DNA of 54,609 nucleotides from assembly GCA_009783695.1 (NCBI GenBank), contig WRCY01000009.1, positions 1-54,609 on the forward strand. The letters are read 5' to 3'. Every line of letters starts with the position of its first letter. Positions within the stretch are counted from its first letter, which is position 1. Below the pieces are notes generated by a model that did no database searches, was not told the origin of the DNA, and saw only the letters and a program-made list of their open reading frames with translations. Positions 13,393-52,713 of this stretch are shown here, piece after piece. The position numbers were made by a program, and so were the translations under genes. Source of the stretch: Oscillospiraceae bacterium (GTDB lineage: Bacteria; Bacillota; Clostridia; Oscillospirales; Ruminococcaceae).

Positions 13393-13431
13393 AATTTCAT
13401 TAAATCCTTTCTTTACGGGAGGGAAAAGTTT
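13393..13431 (-). promoter_or_regulatory. Leader-repeat instance before ribU (3' half)
   Basis: CCCGTAAAGAAAGGATTTAA with AGGA 12 nt before the ATG. The upstream CGGGGAAAACGA half is replaced by the riboswitch terminator. Confidence 0.6.
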
Positions 13432-13432
13432 G

Positions 13433-13464
13433 AAATAAAAAACCCCATGATAAATCACGGGGTA
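13433..13464 (-). terminator. Riboswitch-controlled terminator of ribU
   Basis: On the minus strand CCCCGTGA, loop TTTA, TCATGGGG followed by TTTTTT. A second small hairpin (13466-13484) between aptamer and terminator could take part in the switch. Confidence 0.82.
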
Positions 13465-13487
13465 GTTCCTTTGTTAAAAAGGAACAA

Positions 13488-13612
13488 GTTTCTACCATCC
13501 AGACTATACTGTCGGTCCCGGAATTTCACCAGGTCAGCCTTAGGTCGAATCTTCGACTCGAACACAGCTCGCGGACTTTTACCGCCGGTGGGGAATTACA
13601 CCCCGCCCCGAA
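13488..13612 (-). ncRNA. FMN riboswitch (RFN element)
   Basis: Read on the minus strand it contains the conserved RFN blocks in order: CGGGGCGGGGTGTAATTCCC, ACCGGCGGTA, AGTCCGCGAGC, then GGTGAAATTCCGGGACCGAC and AGTCTGGATGG. It lies directly upstream of a terminator and ribU, so FMN binding should shut off riboflavin uptake by premature termination. Confidence 0.96.
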
Positions 13613-13644
13613 ACAATGTTTATACTATTAAATTGTAAGCCTAA

Positions 13645-13812
13645 TTAACCCTCGATAGCATCAACAGGGCAGTCGGGAGCGCAGGCGCCGCAGTCTATGC
13701 ACTTTTCCGCGTCAATTACGTAAATGGGGTCGCCCTCGGAAATTGCGTCGGTGGGGCAGCTGCCTACACATGCGCCGCAGGAAATGCAGTTGTCGTTAAT
13801 TTTATAAGCCAT
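13645..13812 (-). CDS. 2[4Fe-4S] ferredoxin
   Basis: 55 aa, a complete clostridial-type ferredoxin with two CxxCxxCxxxCP clusters: CISCGACVGSCP near residue 9 and CIDCGACAPDCP near residue 38. It is a soluble low-potential electron carrier. The start ATG 13812 is preceded by the window's leader repeat, with AGGA 12 nt upstream. Its promoter is at 13921-13949; ribU lies downstream on the same strand, behind its riboswitch. Confidence 0.95.
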   Translation of the reverse strand: MAYKINDNCISCGACVGSCPTDAISEGDPIYVIDAEKCIDCGACAPDCPVDAIEG

Positions 13813-13866
13813 ATTTTCACCATGTCCTTTCTACACCCGCGAGAACTGAAAAGTATCGTTTCTCCG
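13813..13866 (-). promoter_or_regulatory. Leader repeat before the ferredoxin gene
   Basis: CGGAGAAACGATACTTTTC, then GTAGAAAGGACATGG; AGGA ends 12 nt before ATG. Confidence 0.7.
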
Positions 13867-13920
13867 ATTCGGCACTGTTTGTTTTAAACTTTCTGCCTGT
13901 GGTGTTTATTTGTTTTGATT

Positions 13921-13949
13921 AGTATAACATGAGATAGAAGAATTGTCAA
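13921..13949 (-). promoter_or_regulatory. Promoter of the ferredoxin gene
   Basis: Minus strand TTGACA (13944-13949), 17 nt, TATACT (13921-13926), immediately after the queA stop. Confidence 0.75.
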
Positions 13950-14930
13950 CTACAAAATAATCATTGAGTCCCCGAAGCTGAAAAACCTATAGCGTTCCCT
14001 AATAGCCTCCTCATAAGCGGCGAGCGTTCGCTCATGCCCCAAAAATGCGCTAACCAGCATAATCAGCGTACTTTCGGGCAGATGAAAGTTGGTAATAAGC
14101 CCGTCTGTAACCTTGAATTTGTAACCCGGGGTTATGAAGATGCCGGTGCTCCCCGAGCCCGCCAGTCCGCAGGAAGCCTCCAGCGTTCTGCAAGACGTCG
14201 TGCCTACGGCAATCACGCGGCCGCCGCGTTCTTTGCAGCGGGCGATTTTTTCTGCTGTTTCTTCGGGAAGCAGATAGCGCTCGTAGTGCATTTTATGCTC
14301 GCTTATATCCTCGCACTTGACGGGGCGGAACGTCCCGAGCCCGACATGCAGCGTTACATATGCGGTTTCGACGCCCTTGTCTGCGAGCCGTTCAAATACC
14401 CGCCCGGTGAAGTGCAGCCCCGCCGTGGGAGCCGCCGCGGAGCCAGCTTCATTGGCATAAATTGTGTTGTAACGCGCCGAATCGTCAAGCCTTTCGGTGA
14501 TGTAATGCGGCAGGGGAGTGTGCCCGATTTCGTCGAGAATTGTATAAAAATCGCCGCTGCAGCTGAACTTTACGAGCCTGTTGCCGTCGCTGAGGATTTC
14601 AACGACCTTCGCGGTCAGTTTATCCTCAAAACTGATTATTCTGCCTTTTTTAAGATTCCTGCCGATACATTCCCAGCAGCCGCCGCCTTTGGGCTCAAGC
14701 AGCAGTATTTCAACATCGTCCGTGAGCAGCCGCGCAGGAAAAACTTTAGAGTCGTTCATAACGAGCAAATCGCCCGCGTTCAAGAAGTCGGCGATGTTAT
14801 AAAAATAATCGTGGTTTGTCGCTCCCGTTTCGCGGCAGGTTATAAGCAGGCGCGAAGAATCGCGCGGCTCTATGGGCGTCTGCGCGATTAGCTCCTCGGG
14901 GAGCTCGTAATAAAAATCGGATTTTTTCAT
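13950..14930 (-). CDS. queA: S-adenosylmethionine:tRNA ribosyltransferase-isomerase
   Basis: 326 aa from ATG 14930. QueA transfers and isomerises the SAM ribosyl group onto preQ1-tRNA in queuosine synthesis. Conserved blocks: FYYELPEELIAQTPIEPRDSSR at the N-terminus, LLVMNDSKVFPARL near 60, AAPTAGLHFT near 165, HVGLGTFRPV near 195, and LITNFHLPESTL near 285. The length is slightly below the usual 340 because the loop after the PARL block is short. The ORF is open for 30 codons above the start, but that stretch is the leader repeat between this gene and the glycosyltransferase upstream. Confidence 0.95.
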   Translation of the reverse strand: MKKSDFYYELPEELIAQTPIEPRDSSRLLITCRETGATNHDYFYNIADFLNAGDLLVMNDSKVFPARLLTDDVEILLLEPKGGGCWECIGRNLKKGRIISFEDKLTAKVVEILSDGNRLVKFSCSGDFYTILDEIGHTPLPHYITERLDDSARYNTIYANEAGSAAAPTAGLHFTGRVFERLADKGVETAYVTLHVGLGTFRPVKCEDISEHKMHYERYLLPEETAEKIARCKERGGRVIAVGTTSCRTLEASCGLAGSGSTGIFITPGYKFKVTDGLITNFHLPESTLIMLVSAFLGHERTLAAYEEAIRERYRFFSFGDSMIIL

Positions 14931-14989
14931 TCGTATTTTAATAAGTCCTTTCTTCACGAACGAGAAATAACATGCTTCATTTTCCCGGG
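14931..14989 (-). promoter_or_regulatory. Leader repeat before queA
   Basis: CCCGGGAAAATGAAGC core, then CGTGAAGAAAGGACTTATT. Here AGGA is 15 nt, not 12, before the ATG, still a whole number of codons different. Confidence 0.65.
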
Positions 14990-15003
14990 TCCAATTATCT
15001 TTT

Positions 15004-16593
15004 TCAATCTTTTTCCTCAAGTAAAAACTCGGCGGCCCACTTCAAGTGCTCGGATGTTACAGCGTCAAGCGCTTCCTTAAACTCTCCCCTGCCCGCATAA
15101 TAGCCGAACCGATGAAGCTCGTCTGCGGGATTATAATTATCAGCCGCATACCGTGCTGCGTATTTCACGAAGTTTTTGTAAAGCACAGCCCGTTCGTTCC
15201 ACGGGAGCCTGCCTGCCTGCTTTACCGCCGTTTCATAGAGAACAACGCCGAAAACAACGTTGCTTTCTATATTTTTCTCTTCATAAGCGAGAGTAAGGTA
15301 CGGCAAATCGAGAACGGCTTCAGCGATTTTCGCCATGTATCTGCCCAGCAGCGCGCCGTCCGTGTCTGTAACGGCGGTGTTATTTTTTATCTTCTCGAGG
15401 AGCGGTTTCCACTCCTGCTCGTCTATGCAGTCCTCTTCCTTTTTTACAGCCGCCGCCGATGTTTCCACCTTTATGGTTGTGCTGTCGGAGAAGGTCATTT
15501 TCCTGCGCCCGGTTTTAAACAGCAGGTTGTCGTATTCGGACTTTAGCTCCGCATACTTTGACGGCTCAGAATAAGTGATTATAAGGTTCCCGGTGTCGGC
15601 GGCAAGCCTGCCCGCGAGGTAATCGCTGTACAGCTTTAAGTATTCGGCGAGAGCTTCGATTGCCTCGTCCTGTCTTCCGAGCTGCTGCAGCGAGAGCGCC
15701 CTCGCCGCGTATACGTCGAGCCAGCGTATGTTTTTCGGCTTCCTGCCGAAAGACTTGATGAATTCGGCCACGCTGCCGAGCACGCTTTCGTACTTTTCAA
15801 GCATGTAATGGTTTATTATGTTGAACGAGAATATACCCTGCGCGTAAGGGTGGTTTTGCTGTCTGCGCGTTACCTCGAGCGTTTCTGCTAAAAACTCCGC
15901 AAGCCCGCCGCCCTGTATGTCCGCAAGGATATGCGAGCGAATCCGCACGTCGTTCGGCTTTTTTTTGAGCTCGGCGCACAGGGGCGTTAAGTTGCGCTCC
16001 TTTTTTGCTTTTGCCTGCTCCTCGGTTTCAAACGCGTAGCCGTAGTGATGGACAAAGGCTTTCAGGCTCAGCGTCGGCGCGGGATAGGGCAGCAGGTGCT
16101 CGTGGATTGCGCCGTGAAAACGCACACCGGGAAGCTTCTTGACGGCGCGCGAAACCGTGCCGGTAGACCATTCCGTACCCCCGGCGTCGTGATAGTTGCG
16201 AACCATGTAGGTCATGCTGCCGTATTTGTTAAGCGCGGCTCTGTTTGTGAAAAAACCCGTCATCTCGCTTAAGTCATCGAAAACCTCGTCCGCGTCAAGG
16301 AACATGAACCACTCGCCTGTGCACTTTTCGAGCCCGAAGTTGCGCGCGGCACTGAAGTCGTTAACCCACTCGAAGTGATAAACCTTGTCGGTAAAGCGTT
16401 TCGCGATTTCGACCGTGCAGTCGGTGCTGCCGGTATCGGCAATCACGAGCTCGCTCGGAACAGCGTCGAGCAGCGGTTTTAGTGCTGTGAGGCATTTTTC
16501 AAGATGCTTCTCCTCGTTTTTGACAATCATGCCGACAGAGAGAAGAATACCGCTTTCGTTATATGTCTGCTTTTTGGCGATACGAGCTTTCAT
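15004..16593 (-). CDS. Family 2 glycosyltransferase with TPR-like C-terminal region
   Basis: 529 aa from ATG 16593 (AGGA 12 nt upstream). The N-terminal GT-A domain has LSVGMIVKNEEKHLEKCL near residue 17, the nucleotide-binding DTGSTDCTVEIAK near 48 and the metal-binding FMFLDADEVF near 95. The C-terminal 270 residues are helical and TPR-like. There is no TM segment. Such GT2-TPR proteins often glycosylate surface or secreted proteins or polymers; the donor and acceptor are unknown. It is the first of two adjacent genes of one family, on the same strand as queA. Confidence 0.85.
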   Translation of the reverse strand: MKARIAKKQTYNESGILLSVGMIVKNEEKHLEKCLTALKPLLDAVPSELVIADTGSTDCTVEIAKRFTDKVYHFEWVNDFSAARNFGLEKCTGEWFMFLDADEVFDDLSEMTGFFTNRAALNKYGSMTYMVRNYHDAGGTEWSTGTVSRAVKKLPGVRFHGAIHEHLLPYPAPTLSLKAFVHHYGYAFETEEQAKAKKERNLTPLCAELKKKPNDVRIRSHILADIQGGGLAEFLAETLEVTRRQQNHPYAQGIFSFNIINHYMLEKYESVLGSVAEFIKSFGRKPKNIRWLDVYAARALSLQQLGRQDEAIEALAEYLKLYSDYLAGRLAADTGNLIITYSEPSKYAELKSEYDNLLFKTGRRKMTFSDSTTIKVETSAAAVKKEEDCIDEQEWKPLLEKIKNNTAVTDTDGALLGRYMAKIAEAVLDLPYLTLAYEEKNIESNVVFGVVLYETAVKQAGRLPWNERAVLYKNFVKYAARYAADNYNPADELHRFGYYAGRGEFKEALDAVTSEHLKWAAEFLLEEKD

Positions 16594-16650
16594 GCTTTTA
16601 ATAAGTCCTTTCTTCACGTGAGGGAAATGAAATGTTTCATTTTCCCCGAT
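16594..16650 (-). promoter_or_regulatory. Leader repeat before the 529-aa glycosyltransferase
   Basis: TCGGGGAAAATGAAACATTT, then CACGTGAAGAAAGGACTTAT; AGGA ends exactly 12 nt before ATG 16593. Confidence 0.7.
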
Positions 16651-16685
16651 TTTGTCTCGGTTATTTTAAAATTTAAGTTTTACCT

Positions 16686-19600
16686 TTATAGCGAAGCGCT
16701 GAATTCTTCAATCAAAAACTTAATAATGTTCTGCATGGAATTGCAGGAAGCGAGCGCTTTTTTGAGCTCTCTTATATACCCGAGCCTGTCCCCGGAGTCC
16801 AGCAGCTTCTTCGCTATGCCCATGAAGTATCCGAAGCGGTGCGATTCCGAAAGCGCGCCGATGTCGTCCTCGTTGAGCAGGTCAGGATTGTAAACATTGC
16901 TTACGTAAAGCGAGCAGTAATTGACGCAGCGGTTGTAAACCTCGGACTTCTGCGGTTCGGTAAGCGAGTCCGTGTTGTAGCACGCCGCCTCGAAAAGCAG
17001 CGTTCCGAAAAGCAGGTTTTTGATACTTGAGAAGAAGAACGCGTCATTCTGATAGCCGATTGCGTGAACGGGCAGGAAAGTGCTGTTCTGTGCAATGACA
17101 GCCAGGTGCGTACGCATAAGCTCAAGGTTCATTTTTGTAATCTCTGCGCCGAGGCTGACGTTGTTTTTAAGCGCGAGCTCGACAGCCGCGGAAAAACCCT
17201 CGGGAACAGGCTTATCGCCGAAGCTGTTTATAAAGCTTTCTATTTCGGTGCTGCCGCTTTCCGCCGTCAGCCGCATGAGCTCTGCGAATTTCCCGCCCGT
17301 ATCTTTGAAGCTTTCCGTGTAAATATTATCGTCGCGGTTCAGGTAATAAAGCTTTTCGAGAGCCTGCTCGAAATAATTGACTTTCTCATCGGTTTTTGTA
17401 CTTTGAACTTTTTCGTAAAAGGCGGCGAGGGTTTTAAATACGGCTTCCCTGTCGCTTTTATTCTTTAACGCATTGATAATTTCAAAAATCGCGCCGGTAG
17501 TGTCCCTGAACGCTTTTGCGGGGAGCCCGGCGAAGTCCGTGCCGGCGTAAACCGCGAGAGCTTCTGTGGTTTTCCCCTGCTTTGAAATGCACATGGCAAG
17601 CAGATTGACGAAGTCGCCGCGCTTTTCGGGCGCGGAATAGTTTGCAATAAGGAACGTGAGCACGCTTCTGTCGAGCTTGCCTTTCCCGAGTTTTTCAAGG
17701 TATTCGAGGTATTTTTTTATGCACTCCCCTGCCTCGGAAAATCTGCCCGTCTCGAACAGCAGCGAGCCTTTGTAGGCGTACGCCTCGGTTAAGACGCCGT
17801 TGTCGGGCTTTGCTTTCGTTATAACCTTATCCATGACGGCGAGGGCGTTTTCAACCTCGCCCGCCGCGTAGTACATATCAAATGCCTTAAAATAAGCGGG
17901 GTATGAAACAGCCTCGCCGGACTTGTCGGACAGCGCAACGGCTTTCTCGACAAAGGCGCGCTTCTTGTCGTCCATGTCCATCATGGAGTCAATCATGTGC
18001 CCGATAGTGCGTAAATCATCAGGTTTTTTCTCAAGCTCCTTTTCGAGCAGCATAAGATTGCGCATGGATTTTTTTCTCTGCTGCTCCATGGTTTCAAAGG
18101 CGTAGCCGTAGTGGTGGGCGTAGGAACTGAAGTAGTAGGCAGGGTTATAAAAACCCGCAAAGGCTTCATGAATCGCGCCCTCAAAGCGCAGGTCATCGGT
18201 CTTGCGCGCGATTCTCTGCACATAAAAGCTGAAGTATTTGTCGTACTTCGCAGAAGTGAAGTTGCGGGTGATATAATAGGCGACGTTATAATTCTTGTGG
18301 ATATTTATATCGCTGAAAAATTTTATCATCTCGGACACGTCTTGAAAATGGTCGTCCGCGTCTAAAAACATGAACCACATACCGCTGCATTTTTCAAGCC
18401 CGAAGTTGCGCGCCGCGCCGAAGTCATCAATCCAGTCGAAATGGTAAATTTTATCGGTAAATTGCTTCGCAATCTCTACGGTTCTGTCAGTACTGCCGGT
18501 ATCGACAATTACAAGCTCGCTCGGCACGGCGTCGAGCAGCGGTTTCAACCCCTCAAGGCAGGCGCCGAGCATACGCTCCTCGTTCTTGACAATCATGCTT
18601 ACCGACAGGACTATGTTTTTGTCGTATTTGTAGGAGAGGGATTTGACCCCATTCAATGCGATGCTTGTGTTTCTTTTTATATTCTCGTGCCCTTTCGAGA
18701 GCTCACAGAGCTGCTTTATTTGATTATAATGCGCTTCTTCAATACTTGAAAGCGGCAGAATACCGAGCACGTCTATATTGAGCTTGCCGTCGGTATAAAG
18801 CTCATAAAATTTAAAATAATTCTCAAAGGCAGTAATCGCATCACTGTATTCCTTGCGGTTATAGGCGATAATTCCCCTCTCGGCGTACATCTCGAGATAG
18901 AGCAGGCTTTTCTGGTTTTTCATCGCCGCCTTGAAGAACTTATAGTTATAATCAAGTGCCTTGTCAAAGTCGCCGATATTATAATAATGCAGGGAAACAA
19001 AAGCCAGAACGAGCGGCAGCCATGAACTGTTATCGTTCTGCTTTTTTGCGGCTTCTATTATTTTCGGAATCAACTTTTCCTTTTCTTCGCTGTCGAGATA
19101 TACGAAAAGGTGCAGGTAGGCGAGCGGGTCGTTAGGTTTTTTATTTATTTCCTCGCGCAGCAGCGGGATATTACGTTTGTCTTTCGCTGCTTTTTCCGCC
19201 TCGCTATTATAAACGTAGCCCCAGTGATGCGCGACGGTTTTAAGGTGCATTGTAGGCTCTTTGAACATTGAAAACCGCTCATGTATAGGGTTTATAAAGT
19301 GCAGGCCCTGAACGCGCCTTGTTATGCGCGCACCTATATAATCACCCCACTCCGAGCCGTCGGGCTTGGCGTGATTCCTTATAAAATAAGTCGCGCTGTT
19401 ATACTTTGCGAGCGTTTGTTTATCGCCGAAGAAGCGAATGAGCTCACTCAAATCGCCGAAAACCTCGTCTGCGTCAAGAAACATGAACCAATCGCCGCTG
19501 CATTTTTCAAGCCCGAAGTTACGTGCCGCTGAAAAATCATTCACCCAGTTGAAGTGAAAAATCTTGTCGGTGTAACGCCCGGCAATCTCAACGGTTTTAT

Positions 19601-21116
19601 CCGTGCTGCCCGTGTCGGTAATTACAAGCTCACTCGGGACAGCGGCAAGCAAAGGCTTCAGTGCGTCAAGGCATTTTTCGAGGCGCGCCTCCTCATTCTT
19701 TACAATCATACCCACCGATAATGTTATACCCATATTTTCATTAAGTCCTTTCTCCACGGGCGAAAAATGAAATGCTCCGTTTTCCCCGGTTTTGTGCAGG
19801 TTGTTTTCAAGTTTATTTTCATTAAGCCCTTTCTCCACGGGCGGAAAATGAAATGCTTCGTTTTCCCCGATTTTGTGCCGGTTGTTTTCAAGTTTATTTT
19901 CATTAAGCCCTTTCTCCACGGGCGGGAAGTAAAATGCTTCGTTTTCCCCGGTTTTGTGCAGGTTGTTTTCAAGTTTATTTTCATTAAGCCCTTTCTCCAC
20001 GGGCGGGAAATAAAATGCTTCGTTTTCCCCGGTTTTGTGCAGGTTGTTTTCAGGCTTTGGGGTTTTCTCCCGCAGCTTTGGCAGCGCGCTGTATATCCGC
20101 TTGATTTTTTCATATTCTTCGGGACGGCAGAAAGTCAGCGCAATCCCGCCGAGCCCCAAAAGATTCAATCTGCCTTTCGTGTAAAGCCCGTATAGCCTGA
20201 AGTAATTCTCAAAGGCAAGAGCTGCTTCGGCGTGTTTGCCCTGCGCCTGCAGAACCGCGCCTTTCGCGACGTAAACGTCGAGCATCAGTATATTCTCGGG
20301 GATATTTTTATAAAGCTTAAAGTATTCGCCGATATATCCGAGCGTTTTTTCGCCGCCCTCTCTCTCAAATAAATATAGAATGAACTCCGTAAAGGCGACG
20401 GCGGCGCCCGCGGCTTGGGGATTTCTGCGGATTTTTTCAAGCACTTCAAGGTAAAAGGCTTCTTTTTCCGCGCCTGCGAGTTCTTGCAATATATGCAGAC
20501 ATATGCCGATGTCGCCGGGATTTTTCGCGAACTCGCCGCGCAGGAGGGAGAGGTTTCTTTGTCTTTTTGCTTCTTGCTGCTCCGGCGTGTCATAGGTATA
20601 GCCGTAGTGGTGTACAAATGTTTTAAACTCATACACGGGCTCCGCGAAAGTCGAAAAGCACTCGTGAATAGGGTATTTAAAGTGAAGTCCTTTGAGCCGT
20701 CTGGTTACGCGGTGCGCCGCGAAAGGATACCATCGGCTGTTCTCGCGATTGGTGTAATTTCTTTTAATATAAGTTGCGCTGTTGTATTTGGCGAGCATTT
20801 TTTTGTCAGTGAAAAAGGCAATCATTTCGCTCAAGTCATCGAAAACCTCGTCTGCGTCAAGGTACATGAACCATTCGCCGGCGCACTTTTCAAGCGAGAA
20901 GTTACGCGCCGCCGCAAAGTCGTTCACCCAGTCGAAGTGAAAAATTTTATCGGTATAACGCCCGGCAATTTCGATAGTCTTATCAGCCGAGCCGGTGTCG
21001 ACAATCACGAGCTCGCTCGGCACAGCGCGAAGCAGCGACGAAAGCGCCGCGAGACATTTTTCAAGGCGCGTCTCCTCGTTTTTCACTATCATGCCGACCG
21101 AAAGCGTAATGTTCAT
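16686..21116 (-). CDS. Triple-domain family 2 glycosyltransferase with TPR-like regions
   Basis: 1476 aa from ATG 21116. An in-frame ATG at 21230 exists, but it arises where a palindrome element meets the leader repeat, so 21116 (AGGA 12 nt upstream) is preferred. Three GT-A domains start near residues 1, 462 and 832, each with a SVGMIVKNEE or SVSMIVKNEE block, D-T-G-S-x-D and FMFLDADE, FMYLDADE or FMFLDADD. TPR-like helices follow each. Between domains 1 and 2 (about 350-461) sit four 27-residue repeats that are in-frame copies of the intergenic leader. A complete leader plus ATG at 19733 could start domain 2 separately. I infer a fusion of formerly separate genes. Confidence 0.82.
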   Translation of the reverse strand: MNITLSVGMIVKNEETRLEKCLAALSSLLRAVPSELVIVDTGSADKTIEIAGRYTDKIFHFDWVNDFAAARNFSLEKCAGEWFMYLDADEVFDDLSEMIAFFTDKKMLAKYNSATYIKRNYTNRENSRWYPFAAHRVTRRLKGLHFKYPIHECFSTFAEPVYEFKTFVHHYGYTYDTPEQQEAKRQRNLSLLRGEFAKNPGDIGICLHILQELAGAEKEAFYLEVLEKIRRNPQAAGAAVAFTEFILYLFEREGGEKTLGYIGEYFKLYKNIPENILMLDVYVAKGAVLQAQGKHAEAALAFENYFRLYGLYTKGRLNLLGLGGIALTFCRPEEYEKIKRIYSALPKLREKTPKPENNLHKTGENEAFYFPPVEKGLNENKLENNLHKTGENEAFYFPPVEKGLNENKLENNRHKIGENEAFHFPPVEKGLNENKLENNLHKTGENGAFHFSPVEKGLNENMGITLSVGMIVKNEEARLEKCLDALKPLLAAVPSELVITDTGSTDKTVEIAGRYTDKIFHFNWVNDFSAARNFGLEKCSGDWFMFLDADEVFGDLSELIRFFGDKQTLAKYNSATYFIRNHAKPDGSEWGDYIGARITRRVQGLHFINPIHERFSMFKEPTMHLKTVAHHWGYVYNSEAEKAAKDKRNIPLLREEINKKPNDPLAYLHLFVYLDSEEKEKLIPKIIEAAKKQNDNSSWLPLVLAFVSLHYYNIGDFDKALDYNYKFFKAAMKNQKSLLYLEMYAERGIIAYNRKEYSDAITAFENYFKFYELYTDGKLNIDVLGILPLSSIEEAHYNQIKQLCELSKGHENIKRNTSIALNGVKSLSYKYDKNIVLSVSMIVKNEERMLGACLEGLKPLLDAVPSELVIVDTGSTDRTVEIAKQFTDKIYHFDWIDDFGAARNFGLEKCSGMWFMFLDADDHFQDVSEMIKFFSDINIHKNYNVAYYITRNFTSAKYDKYFSFYVQRIARKTDDLRFEGAIHEAFAGFYNPAYYFSSYAHHYGYAFETMEQQRKKSMRNLMLLEKELEKKPDDLRTIGHMIDSMMDMDDKKRAFVEKAVALSDKSGEAVSYPAYFKAFDMYYAAGEVENALAVMDKVITKAKPDNGVLTEAYAYKGSLLFETGRFSEAGECIKKYLEYLEKLGKGKLDRSVLTFLIANYSAPEKRGDFVNLLAMCISKQGKTTEALAVYAGTDFAGLPAKAFRDTTGAIFEIINALKNKSDREAVFKTLAAFYEKVQSTKTDEKVNYFEQALEKLYYLNRDDNIYTESFKDTGGKFAELMRLTAESGSTEIESFINSFGDKPVPEGFSAAVELALKNNVSLGAEITKMNLELMRTHLAVIAQNSTFLPVHAIGYQNDAFFFSSIKNLLFGTLLFEAACYNTDSLTEPQKSEVYNRCVNYCSLYVSNVYNPDLLNEDDIGALSESHRFGYFMGIAKKLLDSGDRLGYIRELKKALASCNSMQNIIKFLIEEFSASL
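19734..20057 (-). repeat. Four tandem 81-bp leader-repeat copies inside the glycosyltransferase ORF
   Basis: The TTGTTTTCAAG landmark recurs at 19801, 19882, 19963 and 20044, exactly 81 bp apart. Each unit encodes a 27-residue peptide containing KTGENEAFYFPPVEKGLNEN. On the minus strand only the last unit reads AAGGACTT followed 12 nt after AGGA by ATG (19733); the three before it read AAGGGCTT and have AAA where the ATG would be. Confidence 0.92.
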
Positions 21117-21172
21117 TTTTTTATTAAGTCCTTTCTTCACGGGCGGGAAATGAAATGCTTCGTTTTCCCCGG
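21117..21172 (-). promoter_or_regulatory. Leader repeat before the triple glycosyltransferase
   Basis: CCGGGGAAAACGAAGCATTT, then CCCGTGAAGAAAGGACTTAA, with AGGA 12 nt before ATG 21116. The 3' part of a second unit sits just upstream (about 21185-21230). Confidence 0.75.
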
Positions 21173-21223
21173 TTTTATGCCGGTTATTTTGAGGCTTATT
21201 TTTATTAAGTCCTTTCTTCACGG

Positions 21224-21350
21224 GCGGCAAATGCCGCGTAAGCCGCGAAGCGGCTTAATTCGATTACATAGCCGATTACGCGCCTGCGGCGCGTCAGCAA
21301 ACGAGTTTGCTGCGAAAAATGCGGAGCATTTTTCAAGTTAATCGGCTATA
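21224..21350. repeat. Palindrome-cluster element, copy 2
   Basis: Same modules as 5788-5950 in inverted order: GCGGCAAATGCCGC, GCCGCGAAGCGGC, CGCGCCTGCGGCGCG, GCAAACGAGTTTGC and AAAATGCGGAGCATTTT, ending AATCGGCTATA. It occupies the 5' leader of the glycosyltransferase transcript. Confidence 0.85.
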
Positions 21351-21379
21351 TAATTCATGGCTCTGTGTGCATTAAGACA

Positions 21380-21408: not shown

Positions 21409-21427
21409 TAATTTTTATACCGAATTG

Positions 21428-21821: not shown

Positions 21822-21851
21822 TTAACAGTTGACAATTGGTAATGTATAATT

Positions 21852-28778: not shown

Positions 28779-28834
28779 ATTTTCACTATGTCCTTTCTGC
28801 ATGGGCGGGGAATGAAAAGTTTCGTTTTGCCCGG
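28779..28834 (-). promoter_or_regulatory. Leader repeat before the DUF3137 gene A
   Basis: CCGGGCAAAACGAAACTTTT, then CATGCAGAAAGGACATAG; AGGA exactly 12 nt before ATG 28778. Confidence 0.7.
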
Positions 28835-28865
28835 TTTATTGCTGCTTGTTTCAACCTTTTACCTT

Positions 28866-32110: not shown

Positions 32111-32166
32111 TATTTCACCATGTCCTTTCTGCACCAACAAGGAATGAAAAATTTAATTTTCCCCGA
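32111..32166 (-). promoter_or_regulatory. Leader repeat before the 55-aa gene
   Basis: TCGGGGAAAATTAAATTTTT, then GTGCAGAAAGGACATGG; AGGA 12 nt before ATG 32110. Confidence 0.65.
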
Positions 32167-32196
32167 ATTAATTTCATTTTTAAACTTTGCCGCCTC

Positions 32197-35094: not shown

Positions 35095-36130
35095 ATCTCG
35101 TCACCCGCCCCGAGCCGTCGCCGCCCATAAGCTTCTCAACCTCGGCGACCTTTACGCGGTTGATATCGCCTGCAATAGTATGCTTGAGGCAGCTCGCCGC
35201 GACCGCAAACTCGAGGGCTTTCTGCGGACCATCATAAGTCTTCAAGCCGTAAATCAACCCCGCACCGAATGAATCCCCGCCGCCGACTCTGTCGACGATG
35301 TCGGTGAGCTCGTACTTTTTGCTCAAACAGAAGTTTTTGCCGTCATTAAGACACGCCGCCCAGTTGTTTATGTCCGCGCTCCTGCTCTCGCGCAGCGTAA
35401 CCGCGAGATACCTGAGATTCGGAAACTCCGCCATGACGCGGTTACTCAGCGCCTCATAAGCGGAGGCGTCAAGCTCGCCCTTAGTCACGCTGTCCGCATG
35501 GGCATCGGACATGATTCCGAGCGACTTCTGGCAGTCCTCCTCGTTGGCAATCCCCGCGTGAACGTACCTAAACAGCTCACGCATAACCTCGGGCGCGGTT
35601 TTGCCGTACTTCCAGAGTTTTGCGCGGAAGTTGAGGTCGCAGGAGACTGTCAGCCCCATCGAGTTTGCAGTTTTAACAGCTTCAAGAGAAGCGTCAGCCG
35701 CGCTTTGGCTGAGTGCGGGCGTGATTCCCGTGATGTGGAACCAGTCTGCGTCTGCAAGAACCTCGCGCCAGTCAATGTCGCCGGGCTTCACGACGGAAAT
35801 CAGCGAGCCCTCGCGGTCGTAAATAACGTTCGAGGCGCGCTGGTTTGAGCCGGTTTCAAGAAAATATATGCCGAGCCTGCCTTCTTTTCGCAGGATTGCG
35901 CTCGTATCAACGCCGAAGCGGCGCAGTTCGCCTGCGCAGGCGTCGCCTATGTCGTTATCGGGCAGGACGGTGACGAACTTTGCGGGGATGCCGAAGTTGC
36001 ATAAAGACGCCGCAACATTGGCTTCGCCGCCGCCGAAAGTAGCTTCGAGCAGCGGGCTCTGGAAGAGCCGCTCGTGCGCGGGCGATTTTAAACGGAGCAT
36101 TATTTCGCCGAAAGTTACGGCTTTTTTCAT
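35093..36130 (-). CDS. PfkB-family sugar kinase, 2-keto-3-deoxygluconate kinase-like
   Basis: 345 aa from ATG 36130 (AGGA 12 nt upstream). Ribokinase fold: [10 protein letters not shown] at the N-terminus, the substrate loop [17 protein letters not shown] near 31 and the ATP/anion-hole signature [17 protein letters not shown] near 285 with catalytic Asp in GGGDSF. The FGEIMLRL...ERLFQ start and length suit KdgK, which phosphorylates KDG from pectin or hexuronate breakdown, but no other pathway gene is nearby, so fructokinase is possible. The 5' leader is about 195 nt with two leader repeats. Confidence 0.85.
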
Positions 36131-36231
36131 GTTTTTAATAAGTCCTTTCTTCAACCGGCAGGGAATCAAAACATATTTTCATTAAGTCCTTTTTTCACCA
36201 ACGTGAAATAAAATGTTTCGTTTTCCCGATT
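36131..36231 (-). promoter_or_regulatory. Two leader repeats and a 2-codon upstream ORF before the kinase
   Basis: The outer repeat (36175-36231) has CGGGAAAACGAAACATTTTA and AAAAGGACTTAATG, AGGA 12 nt before an ATG (36174) that opens ATG-TTT-TGA. The inner repeat puts AGGA 12 nt before the real ATG 36130. Confidence 0.7.
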
Positions 36232-36332
36232 CAGTTTTACTATTTTCAAACTTCAATTCTCCGGTTTAATGCAGTTATATTAAAGCTTAAAATTTGCTTT
36301 TCGTGCATATTAAATTATAGTTGTCTTAGGAA

Positions 36333-43309: not shown

Positions 43310-43519
43310 ATGGAAAATTTTGCAGAACATTTAAAAAATATAAGAACAACTAAAGGTTTAACCCAACGGCAAGTTGCGGTTGGTATTGATGTTAGTGAAC
43401 GCCTTTATCAAAGATATGAAGCCGGAAAAGGAAAACCGTCGTTTGATAACCTCTGGGCACTTGCGGATTTTTTTGATATATCCGTTGACGAGCTTATGGG
43501 GCGGGAACAGAAAGCTTGA
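43310..43519 (+). CDS. XRE/Cro-type repressor, module 3
   Basis: 69 aa, AGGA 7-8 nt before ATG 43310. HTH core LTQRQVAVGIDVSERLYQRY and LWALADFFDISVDELMGRE. N-terminus MENFAEHLKNIR is near-identical in pattern to module 2. The short tail (QKA) ends just before the Rrf2 leader, so Rrf2 might be read through from it. Confidence 0.87.
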   Translation: MENFAEHLKNIRTTKGLTQRQVAVGIDVSERLYQRYEAGKGKPSFDNLWALADFFDISVDELMGREQKA

Positions 43520-43536
43520 AAGATAATCTGCGTTTT

Positions 43537-43590
43537 CGGGGAAAACGAAACTTCCATAGCGAATTTGTAAACGAAGGACATGGCAAAAAT
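43537..43590 (+). promoter_or_regulatory. Leader repeat before the Rrf2 gene
   Basis: CGGGGAAAACGAAACTTCC, then AACGAAGGACATGG; AGGA (43575-43578) is exactly 12 nt before ATG 43591. Confidence 0.7.
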
Positions 43591-45989: not shown

Positions 45990-45991
45990 GT

Positions 45992-46025
45992 AATACACAA
46001 ATCACAATTAAAAACTCACAATTGA
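45992..46025. repeat. CACAATTAAAAACTCACAATTGAG microrepeat
   Basis: A short AT-rich direct repeat (CACAATTAA / CACAATTGA) before the GH26-like gene, a variant of the microrepeat family. Confidence 0.6.
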
Positions 46026-46051
46026 GTTAAGTTTGAAATGTGTGATAAATA

Positions 46052-47641: not shown

Positions 47642-47703
47642 AAAGGTTCTAAATTTTGTTTATATTCCATAAAATAATTTGTTAATTTTCTACCAAATTT
47701 ATC

Positions 47704-47732
47704 TTGAAAAGCAATTAATTTTGTGCTATAAT
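47704..47732 (+). promoter_or_regulatory. Promoter of the type IV pilus operon
   Basis: TTGAAA (47704-47709), 17 nt, TATAAT (47727-47732), about 50 nt before the pilC start. Confidence 0.7.
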
Positions 47733-47783
47733 TAATATCAGCTTTGGCAAAACGGGCTAAAATTAATGTCACATGGAGGTTAT

Positions 47784-48977
47784 ATGGCTGTATTTCAATA
47801 TCAGGCGACCGACCTTTCCGGAAAAGTTAAAAAAGGCACGGAAATCGCGGAAAGCCCTCAGCAATTAGCGGAAATACTGCGTGCACGTGACCTTTTCGTA
47901 ACAAGAAGCGAGATTGTGCAGGAAAGAGAGCAAACCGTACGGTATAAGTTCAAAACCGCCAAGCTTTCGATTTTCTGCCGTCAGCTGAGCGCGATGCTCT
48001 ATTCGGGCATTAACCTTGTTCGCGCGCTGCACATCCTCATGACACAGGAGGAGAACAAGAAAGCGAAAGAAGTGCTGCGCGACCTTTATGAAGAGCTTCA
48101 GAGGGGGCGCTCTTTCACCGAAAGCCTTGAGATGAAAGAGGGCGTCTTCCCCGAGTTGTTCATAGGCATGATGGCCGCGGGGGAAAGCTCGGGTAACCTT
48201 GACATGATTGTCGACAGGGTCGCCGACCATTATGCTAAGGAAAACAAACTTAAAAACGTCGTTAAAAAAGCGCTTACATACCCGATTATTCTCGGCATAC
48301 TGATGGTAGTCATTGTTCTGGCGCTGTTCACTTTTATACTGCCGATGTTCATATCCATGTACCCCGAGGGCGATGAGCTTCCGGGGATGGCGGGGCAGAT
48401 GATGGCAATAAGCGACTTCATCATAGATTACTGGTACATTATAGGTCTGGTTGTTCTGGTGGTGGTGCTGGTGATTAGGGCGCTGTTCAGGGTTGCGGCG
48501 TTCCGGCTCGGCTGGGATAAGCTGATTATTATCATGCCCAAAATCGGAAAGCTTGTAAGAGTAATATACACGGCGCGTTTCGGCAGAACCATGGCGAACC
48601 TGTTCGCCTCGGGCATGCAGATGGTTGAATGTATAGAAAAGTCGGTGGGGACGCTCAATAACAGATACCTGCTGTACCTGTTTGACGATGTTCTCAACGA
48701 TATAAAACGCGGAGAGCCGCTCTCGCAGGCAATCGAGAAAATCAATATTTTCGACGGTATGTTTGTATCCACGATTTACATAGGCGAGGAATCGGGAAGA
48801 CTGGACGAAATCCTTTCAAAATCCGCAGACTTTTACGATGAGGAAGCCGATACCGCGCTGCAGAAGCTGACCACCATGATAGAGCCGGTTATGATTATTA
48901 TCATGGGTGTGCTCGTAGCGCTCGTACTGGCGACCATATTCCCGCTTATGTACGGCTCGTTCGAGAACGTTGCATAA
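47784..48977 (+). CDS. pilC: Type IV pilus inner-membrane platform protein PilC
   Basis: 397 aa from ATG 47784 (GGAGG 4 nt upstream). Two T2SSF domains: FCRQLSAMLYSGINLVRALH near 58 and a second at ARFGRTMANLFASGMQMVEC near 266, with three TM helices near 170, 218 and 375 (VMIIIMGVLVALVLATIFPL at the end). PilC links the assembly ATPase to the growing pilus. First gene of pilC-pilM/N-pilO on the + strand. Confidence 0.94.
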   Translation: MAVFQYQATDLSGKVKKGTEIAESPQQLAEILRARDLFVTRSEIVQEREQTVRYKFKTAKLSIFCRQLSAMLYSGINLVRALHILMTQEENKKAKEVLRDLYEELQRGRSFTESLEMKEGVFPELFIGMMAAGESSGNLDMIVDRVADHYAKENKLKNVVKKALTYPIILGILMVVIVLALFTFILPMFISMYPEGDELPGMAGQMMAISDFIIDYWYIIGLVVLVVVLVIRALFRVAAFRLGWDKLIIIMPKIGKLVRVIYTARFGRTMANLFASGMQMVECIEKSVGTLNNRYLLYLFDDVLNDIKRGEPLSQAIEKINIFDGMFVSTIYIGEESGRLDEILSKSADFYDEEADTALQKLTTMIEPVMIIIMGVLVALVLATIFPLMYGSFENVA

Positions 48978-48999
48978 ATTCGTCGCATAGTGACACCAA

Positions 49000-49033
49000 A
49001 ATTATCAATTGTCAATTGTTAATTATTAATTGA
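49000..49033. repeat. TGTCAATTG microrepeat between pilC and pilM
   Basis: AATTATCAATTGTCAATTG followed by TTAATTATTAATTG. Confidence 0.75.
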
Positions 49034-49054
49034 AAAAGGCAGGTGGGCAGATTT

Positions 49055-50551
49055 ATGATATCAATTGATATTACCGATACCCAAATAAAGCTACTCGAGG
49101 CGGCTGTCGCGGCTAAGATTTCCGTCAAGAGAACCGTCGTCAGGGATTTGCCGCCGAACACGATTGAAAACGGCAGAATCGTTGACATGCACATAGTTGC
49201 AGGTGAAATCACCGACATTCTCGTTTCGGAAAAAATAACCGACCGCGAAGCAATAATCTGCATAAACTCCGGCATGATTCTTTATAAGGAAATTGAAATC
49301 CCGAAGCCTAAAGCCGGCAGCGAAACTTTCGTTGTTGAAACAATAATCCAAAACGAGATGTCGCTCGGCGACGAATACAATATTACATACAGCATTTCTG
49401 AAGAAATAATCACCGAAGAGGGTCCCAAGCTTAAGGTTGTCGCCGCCGCCTGCCCGCAGAAGATGCTCGATATCTACCTCGAGCTGTCGCGGCAGGTGGG
49501 GCTTAAAACAAAGCTTGTAGTGGTCAGTACCAACTGTATCACCCGTCTTGTCCGCCGTTCCTCCGTTTATAAGGCGTTCTCTTCGCTGCTGCTGCTGCAG
49601 GTCGACAAGAATTTCATAAACATCAACCTGTATAACAAGGGCGCGGTTGTTTTCTCGCGGCACACGAAAATCGACGCCTCCGACTACGAAAACAGCCCCG
49701 ACTATATAAATCTCGCCGTCTTTGATAACCTTTTCAGAACGATGCACCTGCTCGAGCAGAACGGGCTCGCGGAGGACATAAAAGAGGTTCAGTACTTCGG
49801 CGCAATCAAGGACGACGAGGCGCTGCATACAACAATCGGGCAGCTTAACTTGAAAGCCCGCGAGTTTGAGTATCCCGCCGACCTCGTAAAATCAAAGAGA
49901 AACTATAATTTCAAAGAATTTGCGAACGTTATCGGTTCGCTCATAAAAATCGACCCCAAAACCGAGAACATCAACCTGCTCAACACCAAGGAAAAAAGAA
50001 TTAAATCACTGAACATGAGGTTCAGCTTGGTTTCCCTGTTGGCGGCGGCGTTTTGCGCCGTGGTTGTGTTGGCGGTTTTCGCTGTTTTCAGCTTTGTGGA
50101 GGGGCAGAGGAAAAGAGAGCTTACCAGTCTTGAAGAGCAGTTCCGCAACCTGCGCTATGATGAGATGCTTGCGCGCGTTTCCGAAAAAGAGACGGCAATC
50201 CGGAATTTTACGAACTATGCCGACGCGGTGGACACGGCGAAGCTTCTGTTTGACTTCCAGCCGAAGATGACAAGAAATATAGTGCAGCGCATGATGGATG
50301 TTATGCGCCCCTATAACGGAATGTTCATCTGCGGGTCAATTGAGGTTAAAGGGTATACGCTTTCTGTAACACTGCGCTGCGCGGACCAGACGCATCCCAT
50401 GAAGTATGTTGAAGACCTCAAGGAGGCGGGCTATTTTGAAAACGTAACATTCTACGGCTACGACAGAGTGGAAAACGAGGATACCGGAAATATAGAAATT
50501 GTTTTCGACGTGGCTATGAGAGTGAAAGGGGGGAACATCTTTGAGCCGTAA
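49055..50551 (+). CDS. pilM: PilM-PilN fusion protein
   Basis: 498 aa from ATG 49055, AGGTGG 8-12 nt upstream. Residues 1-310 resemble PilM, the actin-like cytoplasmic scaffold (MISIDITDTQIKLLEAA, then VVAAACPQKMLDIYLELSRQ near 130). One TM helix near 328-352 (VSLLAAAFCAVVVLAVFAVF) leads to a C-terminal PilN-like coiled coil and ferredoxin-fold domain. In most organisms these are two genes; here they are one chain, which would fix the 1:1 PilM:PilN contact covalently. Confidence 0.8.
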   Translation: MISIDITDTQIKLLEAAVAAKISVKRTVVRDLPPNTIENGRIVDMHIVAGEITDILVSEKITDREAIICINSGMILYKEIEIPKPKAGSETFVVETIIQNEMSLGDEYNITYSISEEIITEEGPKLKVVAAACPQKMLDIYLELSRQVGLKTKLVVVSTNCITRLVRRSSVYKAFSSLLLLQVDKNFININLYNKGAVVFSRHTKIDASDYENSPDYINLAVFDNLFRTMHLLEQNGLAEDIKEVQYFGAIKDDEALHTTIGQLNLKAREFEYPADLVKSKRNYNFKEFANVIGSLIKIDPKTENINLLNTKEKRIKSLNMRFSLVSLLAAAFCAVVVLAVFAVFSFVEGQRKRELTSLEEQFRNLRYDEMLARVSEKETAIRNFTNYADAVDTAKLLFDFQPKMTRNIVQRMMDVMRPYNGMFICGSIEVKGYTLSVTLRCADQTHPMKYVEDLKEAGYFENVTFYGYDRVENEDTGNIEIVFDVAMRVKGGNIFEP

Positions 50552-51509
50552 TATAAGCAATTTTGAGAAAGCGATTATTCTGATTGTTATAATGGGCGCT
50601 ATTTTCGGCGCGGGCACATACTTTATAATTATTCCCGCGTATGAAGATGTCGGCAAGGTCAATACGCAAATCGAGGAAAAAAACAGGCAGATTGACGAAG
50701 CGATGCAGCTCATGGTCCGAGAAATCCAGATTGACGAAACCATGGCTGAAAGTCGGGAGAGAGCCGCAAACGTAAACGAAGGGTTCTTCCCGGAGATGAC
50801 TACTACCGAAGCCGTAACGATGGTACAGACGATACTGAACGGCGCTAACTACGGCAGAGGCTTCACCGCCGAGTACGGAATACATGTAACCGATATTGAG
50901 GAGGGGCTGCTTTCGCTGCAGGTGTTCAGCGGAGGCAAGGACATTAAGTATGCACTGAGAGAGTTTGCCACACTCTTCAGCGCGGAGGAAGCCCCGGCTG
51001 CAAGCAGTGATGAGGAGGAGTTTAATCCCGCGCTGATGGCGGCAGAGTACCTGCTCGGCGCAAATGCAGACGAGCTTGAAATACTTGATAAAACAGCTGA
51101 ATTCCTGGCAGAACCGATTTCTTTGCAGCTGACGATTGTCGAAATGCTCAAAGGGAGCAGCCTTTCTGCCGAAGAAAGACAAAAGCTTCTTAGTTTTATG
51201 CGGGAAATTCTTGTGATTACGGATTCGGGGGTGGGAATGATTACCGCTGAATTCACGCTGCGAATCCCGTATAACGAGTACCTGGACTTCCTTGATTATC
51301 TGCATGCATATCCGCTCAGAATGGAAGTCAATACAGCCATACTGTTCCAGGACAACGATTCGTCAATATTGAATAATATCAAATTCGACGAGAGCACGGG
51401 ACTGGCAGATATTGATTTTAAGCTGTTCATTTATGTAGTGAAGCCCATGGAGTTACCCGAGGTGCAGCTCCCCGACCGGAGCGAAGCGGAAGAAGACGAC
51501 GGTCAGTAA
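50541..51509 (+). CDS. pilO: PilO-like type IV pilus alignment-complex protein
   Basis: 322 aa. TTG 50541 has GGGGGG 7 nt upstream and overlaps the previous gene by 11 bp. One TM helix near residues 10-30, then a coiled coil (VNTQIEEKNRQIDEAMQLM) and a periplasm-side domain: the PilO arrangement. A low-complexity acidic tail (SEAEEDDGQ) ends it. The PilO call rests on position and topology more than on sequence. Confidence 0.75.
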   Translation: MSRNISNFEKAIILIVIMGAIFGAGTYFIIIPAYEDVGKVNTQIEEKNRQIDEAMQLMVREIQIDETMAESRERAANVNEGFFPEMTTTEAVTMVQTILNGANYGRGFTAEYGIHVTDIEEGLLSLQVFSGGKDIKYALREFATLFSAEEAPAASSDEEEFNPALMAAEYLLGANADELEILDKTAEFLAEPISLQLTIVEMLKGSSLSAEERQKLLSFMREILVITDSGVGMITAEFTLRIPYNEYLDFLDYLHAYPLRMEVNTAILFQDNDSSILNNIKFDESTGLADIDFKLFIYVVKPMELPEVQLPDRSEAEEDDGQ

Positions 51510-51512
51510 TAA

Positions 51513-51676
51513 TAGACCTGTCCATGAACCTGTTCGCGGCAGATTTTTGGCGGATTTTCCGCTATGCTTCGTTGAATTTTCTTGCAATGCACAAAGCATT
51601 ACTGCGAAAATTCGCCTTGCCTAACGAAAAGTCCGCTTCAAAAATCTACTCGCTCAAAGTTCACGCACAGGTCTAA
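51513..51676. repeat. Long imperfect inverted repeat, 164 bp
   Basis: TAGACCTGT at the left end pairs with ACAGGTCTA at the right; inside, AGATTTTTGGCGGA faces TCCGCTTCAAAAATCT, and GCAATGC faces GCATTAC across the centre. It has no ORF and could fold along its whole length. It lies between pilO and the opposing pilD. Confidence 0.8.
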
Positions 51677-51679
51677 TAA

Positions 51680-51712
51680 AGGGGCAGGAGCGCGTACCGC
51701 GCTCCCGTCCCG
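51680..51712 (-). terminator. Rho-independent terminator of pilD
   Basis: GGAGCGCG and CGCGCTCC form the stem core; on the minus strand it is followed by CCCCTTTATT. It is 4 nt past the pilD stop. Confidence 0.7.
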
Positions 51713-51715
51713 TTG

Positions 51716-52489
51716 TTACAATAAACCCGAATACATTTGTATAATGCGGTAACCGTACAGATAACCGGCGGCAATGCCGAACGCGAGAAACGGCCCGAAG
51801 CAGATAGTGGCGCGCTTTTTCGTGATTTTTACGACGAGTCCGAAGATTCCGCCTGTGAACATCGCAATCAATACCGACGGGACAATCGCCCACCCGAGCA
51901 GCAGCCCCGCCGCCGCCACAAGCTGAACGTCTCCGCCGCCCATCGCGCCGAGATAGCAGAAAACCGCAAAAGGCACGGAAATAATCAGCATGCCGATTAG
52001 ATGTTCATACCATAAAACATCGGACGGCAGAAACAGGGAGAGCACGGTGGCGATGATACCGAGCGCTGCAATAGTGCCTGTGCACCAGTAAGGGATTTCA
52101 GTTTTCCTTATGTCCTCCGCGCTCAGCGCGACCAGCACGGGGAAAAGAATCATACCGATGACTGTGTGAATTATATCGCCGGGGCGTTGGAAGCCTGCCG
52201 CCATAAAAACCCAGAGGCAGCCGCCGCCGCACAGCAGCTCCATAAGCAGGTACTGCGGGCTCATGCGCGTCATGCATTTGCGGCAGCGCCCGCGCTGTGT
52301 GGTATAGCTTAGCACGGGAACAAGCTCAAACCATTTGAGGACATGCTTACATTCCGGGCAGTGCGAGCGGGTTTTCACGAAGTCCTTCTTCTGCGGCACG
52401 CGAAGAAGCACAACGTTGAAAAAACTGCCCAGGCAGCCGCCCAGCATAAATATAAGCAAACACATTATCCCGTAAAGAAAAGTTTCCAT
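51716..52489 (-). CDS. pilD: Type IV prepilin peptidase/methyltransferase
   Basis: 257 aa, GGGGGT 3 nt before ATG 52489. N-terminal methylase region GSFFNVVLLRVPQ near 21 with a zinc site of two CxxC pairs (CPECKH, CRKCM near 44-72); TM helices; catalytic aspartates in SAEDIRKTEIPYW near 122 and GAMGGGDVQLVAAAG near 187. It cleaves prepilin leaders and N-methylates the new end. It is transcribed against the other pilus genes. Confidence 0.93.
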   Translation of the reverse strand: METFLYGIMCLLIFMLGGCLGSFFNVVLLRVPQKKDFVKTRSHCPECKHVLKWFELVPVLSYTTQRGRCRKCMTRMSPQYLLMELLCGGGCLWVFMAAGFQRPGDIIHTVIGMILFPVLVALSAEDIRKTEIPYWCTGTIAALGIIATVLSLFLPSDVLWYEHLIGMLIISVPFAVFCYLGAMGGGDVQLVAAAGLLLGWAIVPSVLIAMFTGGIFGLVVKITKKRATICFGPFLAFGIAAGYLYGYRIIQMYSGLL

Positions 52490-52572
52490 AAGACCCCCGT
52501 AATTTTGTTACTCCCATAATAATATACTAAAAGAAAATAATTGTCAATAATGCGGTAAGTTTAAATTATATC

Positions 52573-52713
52573 TGCAAAACCGGGGAAAACGATATTATGT
52601 AGTTTAGAATAGTTCAGAAAGGGCTTATTGAAAACAAGTTAAAAATTGTATTTGCAAAACCGGGGAAAACGATACCGTATAATTTAGAATAGTTCGGAAA
52701 GGACTTATTGAAA
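52573..52713 (+). promoter_or_regulatory. Two tandem 81-bp leader repeats before pilB
   Basis: GCAAAACCGGGGAAAACGAT occurs at 52573 and 52654, 81 bp apart. The first unit has AAAGGGCTTATTG and no ATG; the second has AAAGGACTTATTG and leads into the pilB ATG with AGGA 10 nt upstream. A weak promoter-like TTGTCA (52541) is further left. Confidence 0.8.

Follow-up and report, generated by a model that had tools for sequence, protein, structure and literature searches.

TAACTGA direct repeats recur at start codons in Beggiatoaceae, Cyanobacteria and Bacteroidetes with a patchy distribution, and the portions of the report cited here give no evident mechanism for their spread (MacGregor 2015, PMC4679880). 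They are the closest known system to the repeat described here, a ~80-nt unit found in a 54,609-nt stretch of an Oscillospiraceae genome (assembly GCA_009783695.1, contig WRCY01000009.1, positions 1 to 54,609; hereafter the window), which resembles them in its repeated copies, patchy distribution and start-codon location. However, the TAACTGA unit is 7 nt long, has little Shine-Dalgarno (SD) character and, in the same portions, usually has no adjoining SD (PMC4679880), whereas the present unit is ~80 nt long, carries its own SD and comes with empty-site evidence. The tandem TAACTGA heptamer is absent from the unit consensus, and a few diverged units hold a single non-tandem copy. Pneumococcal BOX repeats are likewise small, interspersed and present in many copies, but the cited parts of that report describe no start-codon siting or SD supply, and BOX-encoded open reading frames (ORFs) are without good SDs (PMC3049150). 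Repetitive extragenic palindromic (REP) sequences are, in the part of the literature cited, likewise short and present in over 100 copies per genome (PMC2817692). Unlike REP/RAYT or IS200/IS605-type systems, the present unit has no conserved palindrome or hairpin, and no Y1 transposase was found in its six carrier genomes. REP sequences are moved by RAYT (Y1) transposases, and miniature inverted-repeat transposable elements (MITEs) are short non-coding mobile elements. The unit is likewise short, non-coding and probably mobile; its ends AAGTTTG... and ...GAAAAT are not inverted by eye in 19 near-identical copies, and no target-site duplication is evident at empty sites, where divergence blurs the exact bases. 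Searches of open-access PMC papers, a set that takes in few subscription papers and no preprints, showed no description of such an element among their top-ranked matches.

We conclude, with a probability of roughly 0.85 judged from sequence comparisons, that the unit is mobile DNA, inserting at start codons and substituting its own ribosome-binding site for that of the gene. It would belong with the small interspersed mobile repeats, set apart by insertion inside the initiation site and by SD replacement.

A repeated unit at start codons

A sequence-only reading of the window had listed eleven sites with a shared leader and a fixed gap between AGGA and the start codon. All eleven carry the leader, and the gap from the end of AGGA to ATG is 12 nt at nine of them, 15 nt at queA and 10 nt at pilB. 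The ATG at 36174, taken there for the start of an upstream ORF, runs straight into a stop (ATG TTT TGA); it marks where the two units of an array ending at 36130 join. Searching the window with an iterated profile of 78 positions at a cut-off of at least 18 bits revealed 17 units in 11 arrays; a start codon ends all 11, and the spacing is 12 nt in nine. One array, four tandem units at 19734-20057 ending at ATG 19733, was absent from the earlier list.

We applied the same profile to 797 kb of the host genome (G000; window included, 36% of the 2.23-Mb assembly), to 788 kb of a relative, G023, and to 221 kb of a further carrier, G058. There were 307 matches in the host sample and 22 in that of G058, while the 788 kb of G023 yielded none, and reversed sequence none even at 12 bits. 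In the whole host assembly the motif AGAAAGGACWT occurs 384 times, against 2 for its reversed form, and extrapolation from the sample gives ~860 copies per host genome. The 307 host matches form 211 arrays, of which 151 are single, 36 double and 14 triple, with eight of four units and two of five. Matches are enriched at gene starts, as the repeat family proposed from the window would be: in 180 of the 211 arrays the last unit is followed by the ATG of a same-strand ORF of 60 amino acids (aa) or more, compared with 11.5% of 20,000 random places and 6/211 on the other strand, and several of the remaining 31 precede shorter genes, such as a 55-aa ferredoxin and the 37-aa L36. When ORFs of at least 35 aa, or running off the end, are allowed, a start is found for 206 of 228 arrays in the host and G058 together (193 of them in the host).

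A simple ORF-based count places a unit at 162 of the 666 ORFs of at least 100 aa in the host sample. Units lie directly 5' of the genes for L2, L22, L14, L24, L6, S5, L30, L15, L36 and IF-1; these ten were chosen for scanning from the 15 unit-bearing ORFs of one stretch (L012), and 10/10 were so identified. A spacing of exactly 12 nt is the commonest among the 193 start-adjacent host arrays (91) but is no fixed rule: 16 nt occurs in 22, 11 nt in 20, 10 nt in 16 and 13 nt in 14, with other values in 15 and no AGGA in 15. The frame through the leader, often open, looks like a by-product. A translated leader is rejected: spacings in 80 of the 178 AGGA-bearing arrays are not multiples of three (10, 11, 13, 14, 16 or 17 nt), which means that no N-terminal extension is being preserved.

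The unit reads AAGTTTGAAAATAA...CGGGGAAAACG...GAAGAAAGGACTTAATGAAAAT over ~80 nt, and its firm parts across 80 diverse units are AATCGGGGAAAACG and G(A/C)AGAAAGGAC(T/A)T...AAAAT. Its ends, AAGTTTG and GAAAAT, were set by 19 near-identical copies in carrier G012, where the next bases are ATG in 18 and another unit in one. Most of these 19 loci were picked by a pattern ending in ATATG, and their 12-nt spacing is not usable as evidence; in a G012 sample unselected for the right end, ATG lies at exactly 12 nt in 15/16 motif matches. The SD of the unit, AGAAAGGA, is complementary to the UCCUUUCU of the 16S rRNA tail (...CCTCCTTTCT, from the gene of genus member G014). This pairing would sit farther along the tail than that of AGGAGG, so the 12-nt gap may be less odd than it appears. 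Unit-free orthologous starts carry AGGA in 26/42 cases, and 23 of those end 3-10 nt 5' of the start codon.

Could the leader be only the ordinary SD and spacer of this genome, conserved by translation? The pairing of AGAAAGGA with the 16S tail is what this would give, but ~50 nt upstream of the SD are shared as well, the units form tandem arrays, orthologues have ordinary SDs, and in the family's 246 other sampled genomes the motif stays at background level (0-12 copies). We regard this explanation as practically negligible.

The SD is conserved chiefly at the start codon. AAAGGA is intact in 170/193 start-adjacent units vs 52/96 inner ones, and in a paired comparison of 58 multi-unit arrays the last copy was intact and its neighbor changed in 20, with the reverse in 1 (p = 2e-5). 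Because it is intact mainly in start-adjacent copies, AAAGGA is probably the working SD, and the constraint on a full SD would fall chiefly where it faces the start codon.

The CGGGGAAAA block behaves differently: it is present in 100/193 start-adjacent and 60/95 inner units, equally conserved in both with no start-adjacent excess (p = 0.08 towards inner), and much more conserved than the stretches beside it. Unit-bearing starts also lie close behind a same-strand gene more often than other starts do (91/162 vs 179/504, p = 4e-6, host sample). Both observations would suit a chiefly regulatory leader, in which a trans-acting protein or RNA binds the AATCGGGGAAAACG block and controls initiation of hundreds of genes, the copies having been retained because they link genes into a regulon. 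However, a mobility signal would be expected to be conserved just as well, G023 is a close relative without units in 788 kb, and the three gene pairs that have units in both the host and G058 carry differing units. No common function was noticed among the genes read, as an impression only. Conserved RNA structure is rejected too: RNAalifold found 0 consensus pairs in 80 diverse units and excess folding stability was slight (mean z -0.56 over 90 units, 12% below -2), although some single units form strong hairpins. At gathering scores the sole Rfam match in the window is the flavin mononucleotide (FMN) riboswitch, and the sole match at E<=0.1 in four other stretches is a tRNA. A mainly regulatory leader thus seems to us quite unlikely. 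For a site of a regulator of initiation, as the sequence-only reading had suggested, the conserved block is the only positive evidence.

Native Shine-Dalgarno sequences beside the unit and empty sites in relatives

The sequence left of the unit frequently retains an SD. An SD-like 5-mer lies within 20 nt before the AAG of the unit in 51 of 91 well-defined left flanks, compared with 5-8/91 in four bins farther away and 9.3% at random. A stricter SD 5-mer, present in 42/91 flanks, ends a median of 4 nt before AAG; at unit-free G023 orthologues (15/23) it ends a median of 7 nt before the start codon. Because the two medians differ in this way, the insertion junction would seem to lie within the old spacer, with ~3 nt of spacer lost.

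Relatives show what such sites look like when empty. At the ferredoxin gene, G023 reads ...cggaggaaagaaa followed by ATGGCTTAT and G012 reads ...ggagggaaaacc followed by ATG; the host reads ...caggcagaaa, then the unit, then ATGGCTTAT. At a second site, G023 has aggagaaataaaaat before ATG vs gggagagataaaaa, unit and ATG in the host, and at a third, gaaagcatgaggtaaaa before ATG vs gaaagcatgagatgaaaa, unit and ATG. The reverse case also occurs, with one gene carrying a unit in G058 and unit-free in the host. The orthologue comparison comprised 53 rows, 47 of them rows in which the relative gave no profile match (24 G023, 18 G058, 5 G000) and six with units in both, these six being three G000/G058 gene pairs viewed from either side. 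G058 is itself a carrier, and at least 2 of its 18 "empty" rows (g134 and g184) have a right end that resembles the unit's but scores under the cut-off; the clean set is therefore that of the 24 G023 rows. Where the left end is well defined (24 rows), the flank agrees with the pre-start sequence of the relative at 10.5 of 18 bases, compared with 8.8 in permuted pairings (maximum of 1000, 9.8). The unit's own end agrees at 8.9 of 18; the flank is better in 14 rows, worse in 7 and equal in 3. A native SD accompanies 69% of the high-scoring units but 38% of those with low scores (Spearman rho 0.23, p = 0.011, n = 116), as would be expected if it decays once displaced.

We propose that a non-coding element of ~80 nt inserts, in a single orientation, directly 5' of the start codon, between SD and ATG. 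The gene would stay translatable because the unit brings an SD, AGAAAGGA, whose complement lies in the extended 3' tail of 16S rRNA, and translation would proceed from this SD, leaving the displaced native SD free to decay. Arrays of 2-5 would form as later copies appear beside the ATG or through local duplication in tandem, and the full SD would be retained mainly in the copy that adjoins the start codon. For a minority, those with a spacing of 16 nt, the unit's own in-frame ATG would probably be the start; an in-frame ATG or GTG lies inside the unit in 18/22 of this class.

Near-identical copies at unrelated places fit this proposal. In G012, 19 copies differ from one 69-base core by no more than 3 edits, while their left flanks have 31% mean identity and hold an SD-like 5-mer in 14/19. 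In G036, unrelated genes are preceded by three 81-mers, of which two are identical and the third is 2 bases different, and copies from different arrays in the host reach 97.5% identity. One alternative is a transposase from an ordinary family whose target is short (ATGAA/TTCAT, for example), inserting anywhere while selection purges copies not before starts: ATGAA follows at 11/15 G012 insertions vs 128/396 SD-marked G023 starts (p = 0.0014), and at 16/18 in a larger, overlapping set. However, this preference is not significant in the host (37/91, p = 0.09) and is absent from the three G036 copies, and few intergenic copies exist elsewhere, with the starts of ORFs of 60 aa or more accounting for 180/211 arrays and shorter genes for several of the 31 left. 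Purging by selection is, in our judgment, unlikely to account for the pattern.

Carriers, vehicles and the search for a mobilizing enzyme

Few genomes carry the unit. Among 71 members of the genus, GMAGAAAGGACWT occurs 282 times in the host, 84 in G058, 73 in G012, 16 in G034, 9 in G036 and 7 in G006, and 0-2 times in all others; by motif count, 6/71 are carriers. Among 247 sampled genomes of the family the host alone stands out, the other 246 holding 0-12 copies of a shorter motif, which is background level. An exact-pattern scan of one genome per species (84,980), whose coverage possibly leaves out the host's own records, returned 59 stretches, all in the Oscillospiraceae metagenome-assembled genomes (MAGs) Pal332_bin5 and Pal332_bin19, the carriers G058 and G012. 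A QueA tree built for 30 genus members requires 6 changes of the carrier label, the same as shuffled labels do. G000, G012 and G058 fall in a group of five with G020 and the unit-free G023, which pairs with G000 at 89/88 support; G006, G036 and G034 lie elsewhere. A single origin with vertical descent is rejected on this count of changes, weakly, as it comes from one gene.

Two pattern scans of viral contigs found three carriers. A tailed-phage contig (L246) has six units, each ending at an ATG (of a minor head protein, the tape measure and others). The profile matches 12 times in a phage contig with major head and tail proteins (L248), and six of these matches stand at the ATG of an ORF of 100 aa or more. 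On a conjugative-type contig with a relaxase, a serine recombinase and ParA (L247), one unit stands at a 78-aa ORF. Phages and conjugative elements are thus plausible vehicles. The earlier suggestion of a repeat family that inserts at starts is thus borne out by start enrichment, empty sites, native SDs left behind and near-identical copies at unrelated genes, with further backing from copies at gene starts on phage and conjugative-type contigs. The same evidence in effect upholds the suggested mobile translation-initiation cassette; taken together, the three suggestions are partly supported.

Several observations weigh against insertion with SD replacement. A search of the host assembly for the 16S tail gave no match. 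The SD difference between copies is chiefly one base, the last A of AAAGGA (0.93 start-adjacent vs 0.75 inner, p = 5e-5), and AAAGG is retained in most aligned inner copies. Unit identity is 0.846 within an array vs 0.637 to other units, so some copies are local tandem duplications. The apparent loss of ~3 nt of spacer is not predicted by clean insertion. Window genes are ~20-28% divergent in DNA from the compared relatives, which limits the precision of the junctions to a few bases, and no event between strains was caught. Candidate enzymes fare no better: Y1 transposase (PF01797) has 0 matches in all six carriers (assemblies 86-98% complete); reverse transcriptase RVT_1 (PF00078) has 0 in G000, G006, G034 and G036 and one each in G012 and G058; the IS110 DEDD transposase (PF01548) has 0 in G000 and G012 and one each in G058, G006 and G036, G034 being outside that search; and serine recombinases are equally common in unit-free G023 and so do not track carriers.

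The chief change in inner SDs is from A to G: AAAGGG replaces AAAGGA in 21/96 inner vs 11/193 start-adjacent units. Even decay of inner copies was not observed, and the weakening of buried SDs may be selected, not neutral.

PF01797, PF00078, PF01548 and PF00239 were rejected as mobilizers, as none tracks the carriers; of these only PF00078 was searched over all 71 genus members, matching in 24/71, and PF01797 matched 5/14 control genomes and also G014, G028 and G020. Self-comparison of the 797 kb returned units and paralogues up to 665 nt, with no long multi-copy insertion sequence among the 45 longest pairs. Incomplete MAGs, as all carriers are, often lose repeated insertion sequences. A reverse-transcription signature, 5' shortening, was likewise rejected: in 27 start-adjacent arrays the first unit lacks the left part of the profile, and by eye these mostly resemble diverged full units, with only about five that look cut.

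An absent transposase is what one would expect without any dedicated mobility. Microhomology copying, by template switching or short-homology gene conversion, could spread units whose donor flanks (an SD-like purine run on one side, ATG and A-rich codons on the other) often resemble gene starts, and it would also account for the placement between SD and ATG, the fixed orientation, tandem growth and the lost spacer bases; the two ends of the unit share the direct repeat TGAAAAT. Yet hundreds of events at ~10-nt homologies would be needed, and neither the few-species distribution nor the young G012 copies, near-identical full units with defined ends, is explained. We consider this route possible, if rather unlikely. 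Conversely, a dedicated transposition system may target the translation-initiation site, integrating a non-coding cassette between SD and AUG, recruiting ribosomes in place of the native signal at about one gene in four (those for ribosomal proteins and IF-1 among them) and crossing species on phages and conjugative elements; the odds of this fuller proposal seem to us just short of even.

The units of the window and their meaning

In the window, bit scores are those of nhmmer with the 78-position profile, and the names GT2, DUF3137, sugar kinase, Rrf2 and pilB are labels from the sequence-only reading. All units up to 36254 lie on the minus strand. An FMN riboswitch (13483-13619, minus strand) precedes ribU, and right past its terminator begins a shortened unit, the right half (13394-13446; 18.8 bits, model 44-76), before the ribU ATG, whose first base is 13392. 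The ferredoxin gene (ATG 13812) has a unit at 13813-13892 (50.5 bits), and in three relatives a native SD stands directly 5' of its ATG. Next come a unit at 14934-15014 (43.6 bits) before queA (ATG 14930, spacing 15) and one at 16594-16674 (56.2 bits) before a GT2 gene (ATG 16593), a site that is empty in G012.

The four-unit array at 19734-20057, with a period of 81 nt and scores of 62.6, 63.1, 58.7 and 60.0 bits, lies within a longer frame: the ORF starting at 21116 (16686-21116, minus strand; 1476 aa in total) reads in frame through it. ATG 19733 may be a start or an inner Met. Because the frame passes through the array, this could be a fusion of two neighboring genes, or the array may encode a linker. 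A unit at 21117-21197 (59.7 bits) precedes the ORF starting at 21116, and the right half of another, the upstream member of the array ending there, lies at 21198-21239 (24.5 bits, model 42-77). A second palindromic repeat (GCCGCTTCGCGGCTTACGCGGC and similar) adjoins units here (window ~21200-21300, minus strand) and at G000 C5 ~13211.

Other tandem arrays of the host vary in form. The first 380 bases of L158 are an array at a contig start with units 96% identical, and L160 has at ~14.6-15 kb a diverged tandem family of period ~77 nt from which the usual right end is missing. Variant tandem-array units at ~17.3 kb of L145 (G000 C4 ~37311) contain TTGAAA-16-TATAAT, which resembles a promoter and suggests that some arrays may have acquired one.

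Farther along the window, units precede the DUF3137 gene (28779-28859, ATG 28778, 48.4 bits) and a 55-aa ORF (32111-32191, ATG 32110, 42.4 bits). The sugar-kinase array consists of an inner unit at 36175-36254 (52.6 bits) and a shortened last unit at 36131-36174 (21.2 bits, model 36-77) before ATG 36130. On the plus strand, a diverged unit at 43511-43590 (31.3 bits) precedes Rrf2 (ATG 43591), and the pilB array has an inner unit at 52555-52635 (37.2 bits) and a last unit at 52635-52713 (36.8 bits) before ATG 52714, with a spacing of 10.

A gene whose SD is parted from its start codon by mobile DNA would be expected to fall silent; in the present case the element seems to survive by replacing the SD. 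With about a quarter of the host's genes affected, ribosomal-protein genes too, this amounts to a genome-scale natural experiment on SD requirements, from which tolerated spacings, the fading of displaced SDs and the conservation of new SDs chiefly at the start codon can be read. The carriers are a few uncultured bacteria of one genus, and in such genomes leaders and start sites should be treated, as a warning, as mobile. The pattern points to an insertion process that recognizes gene starts, with potential use in placing expression signals.

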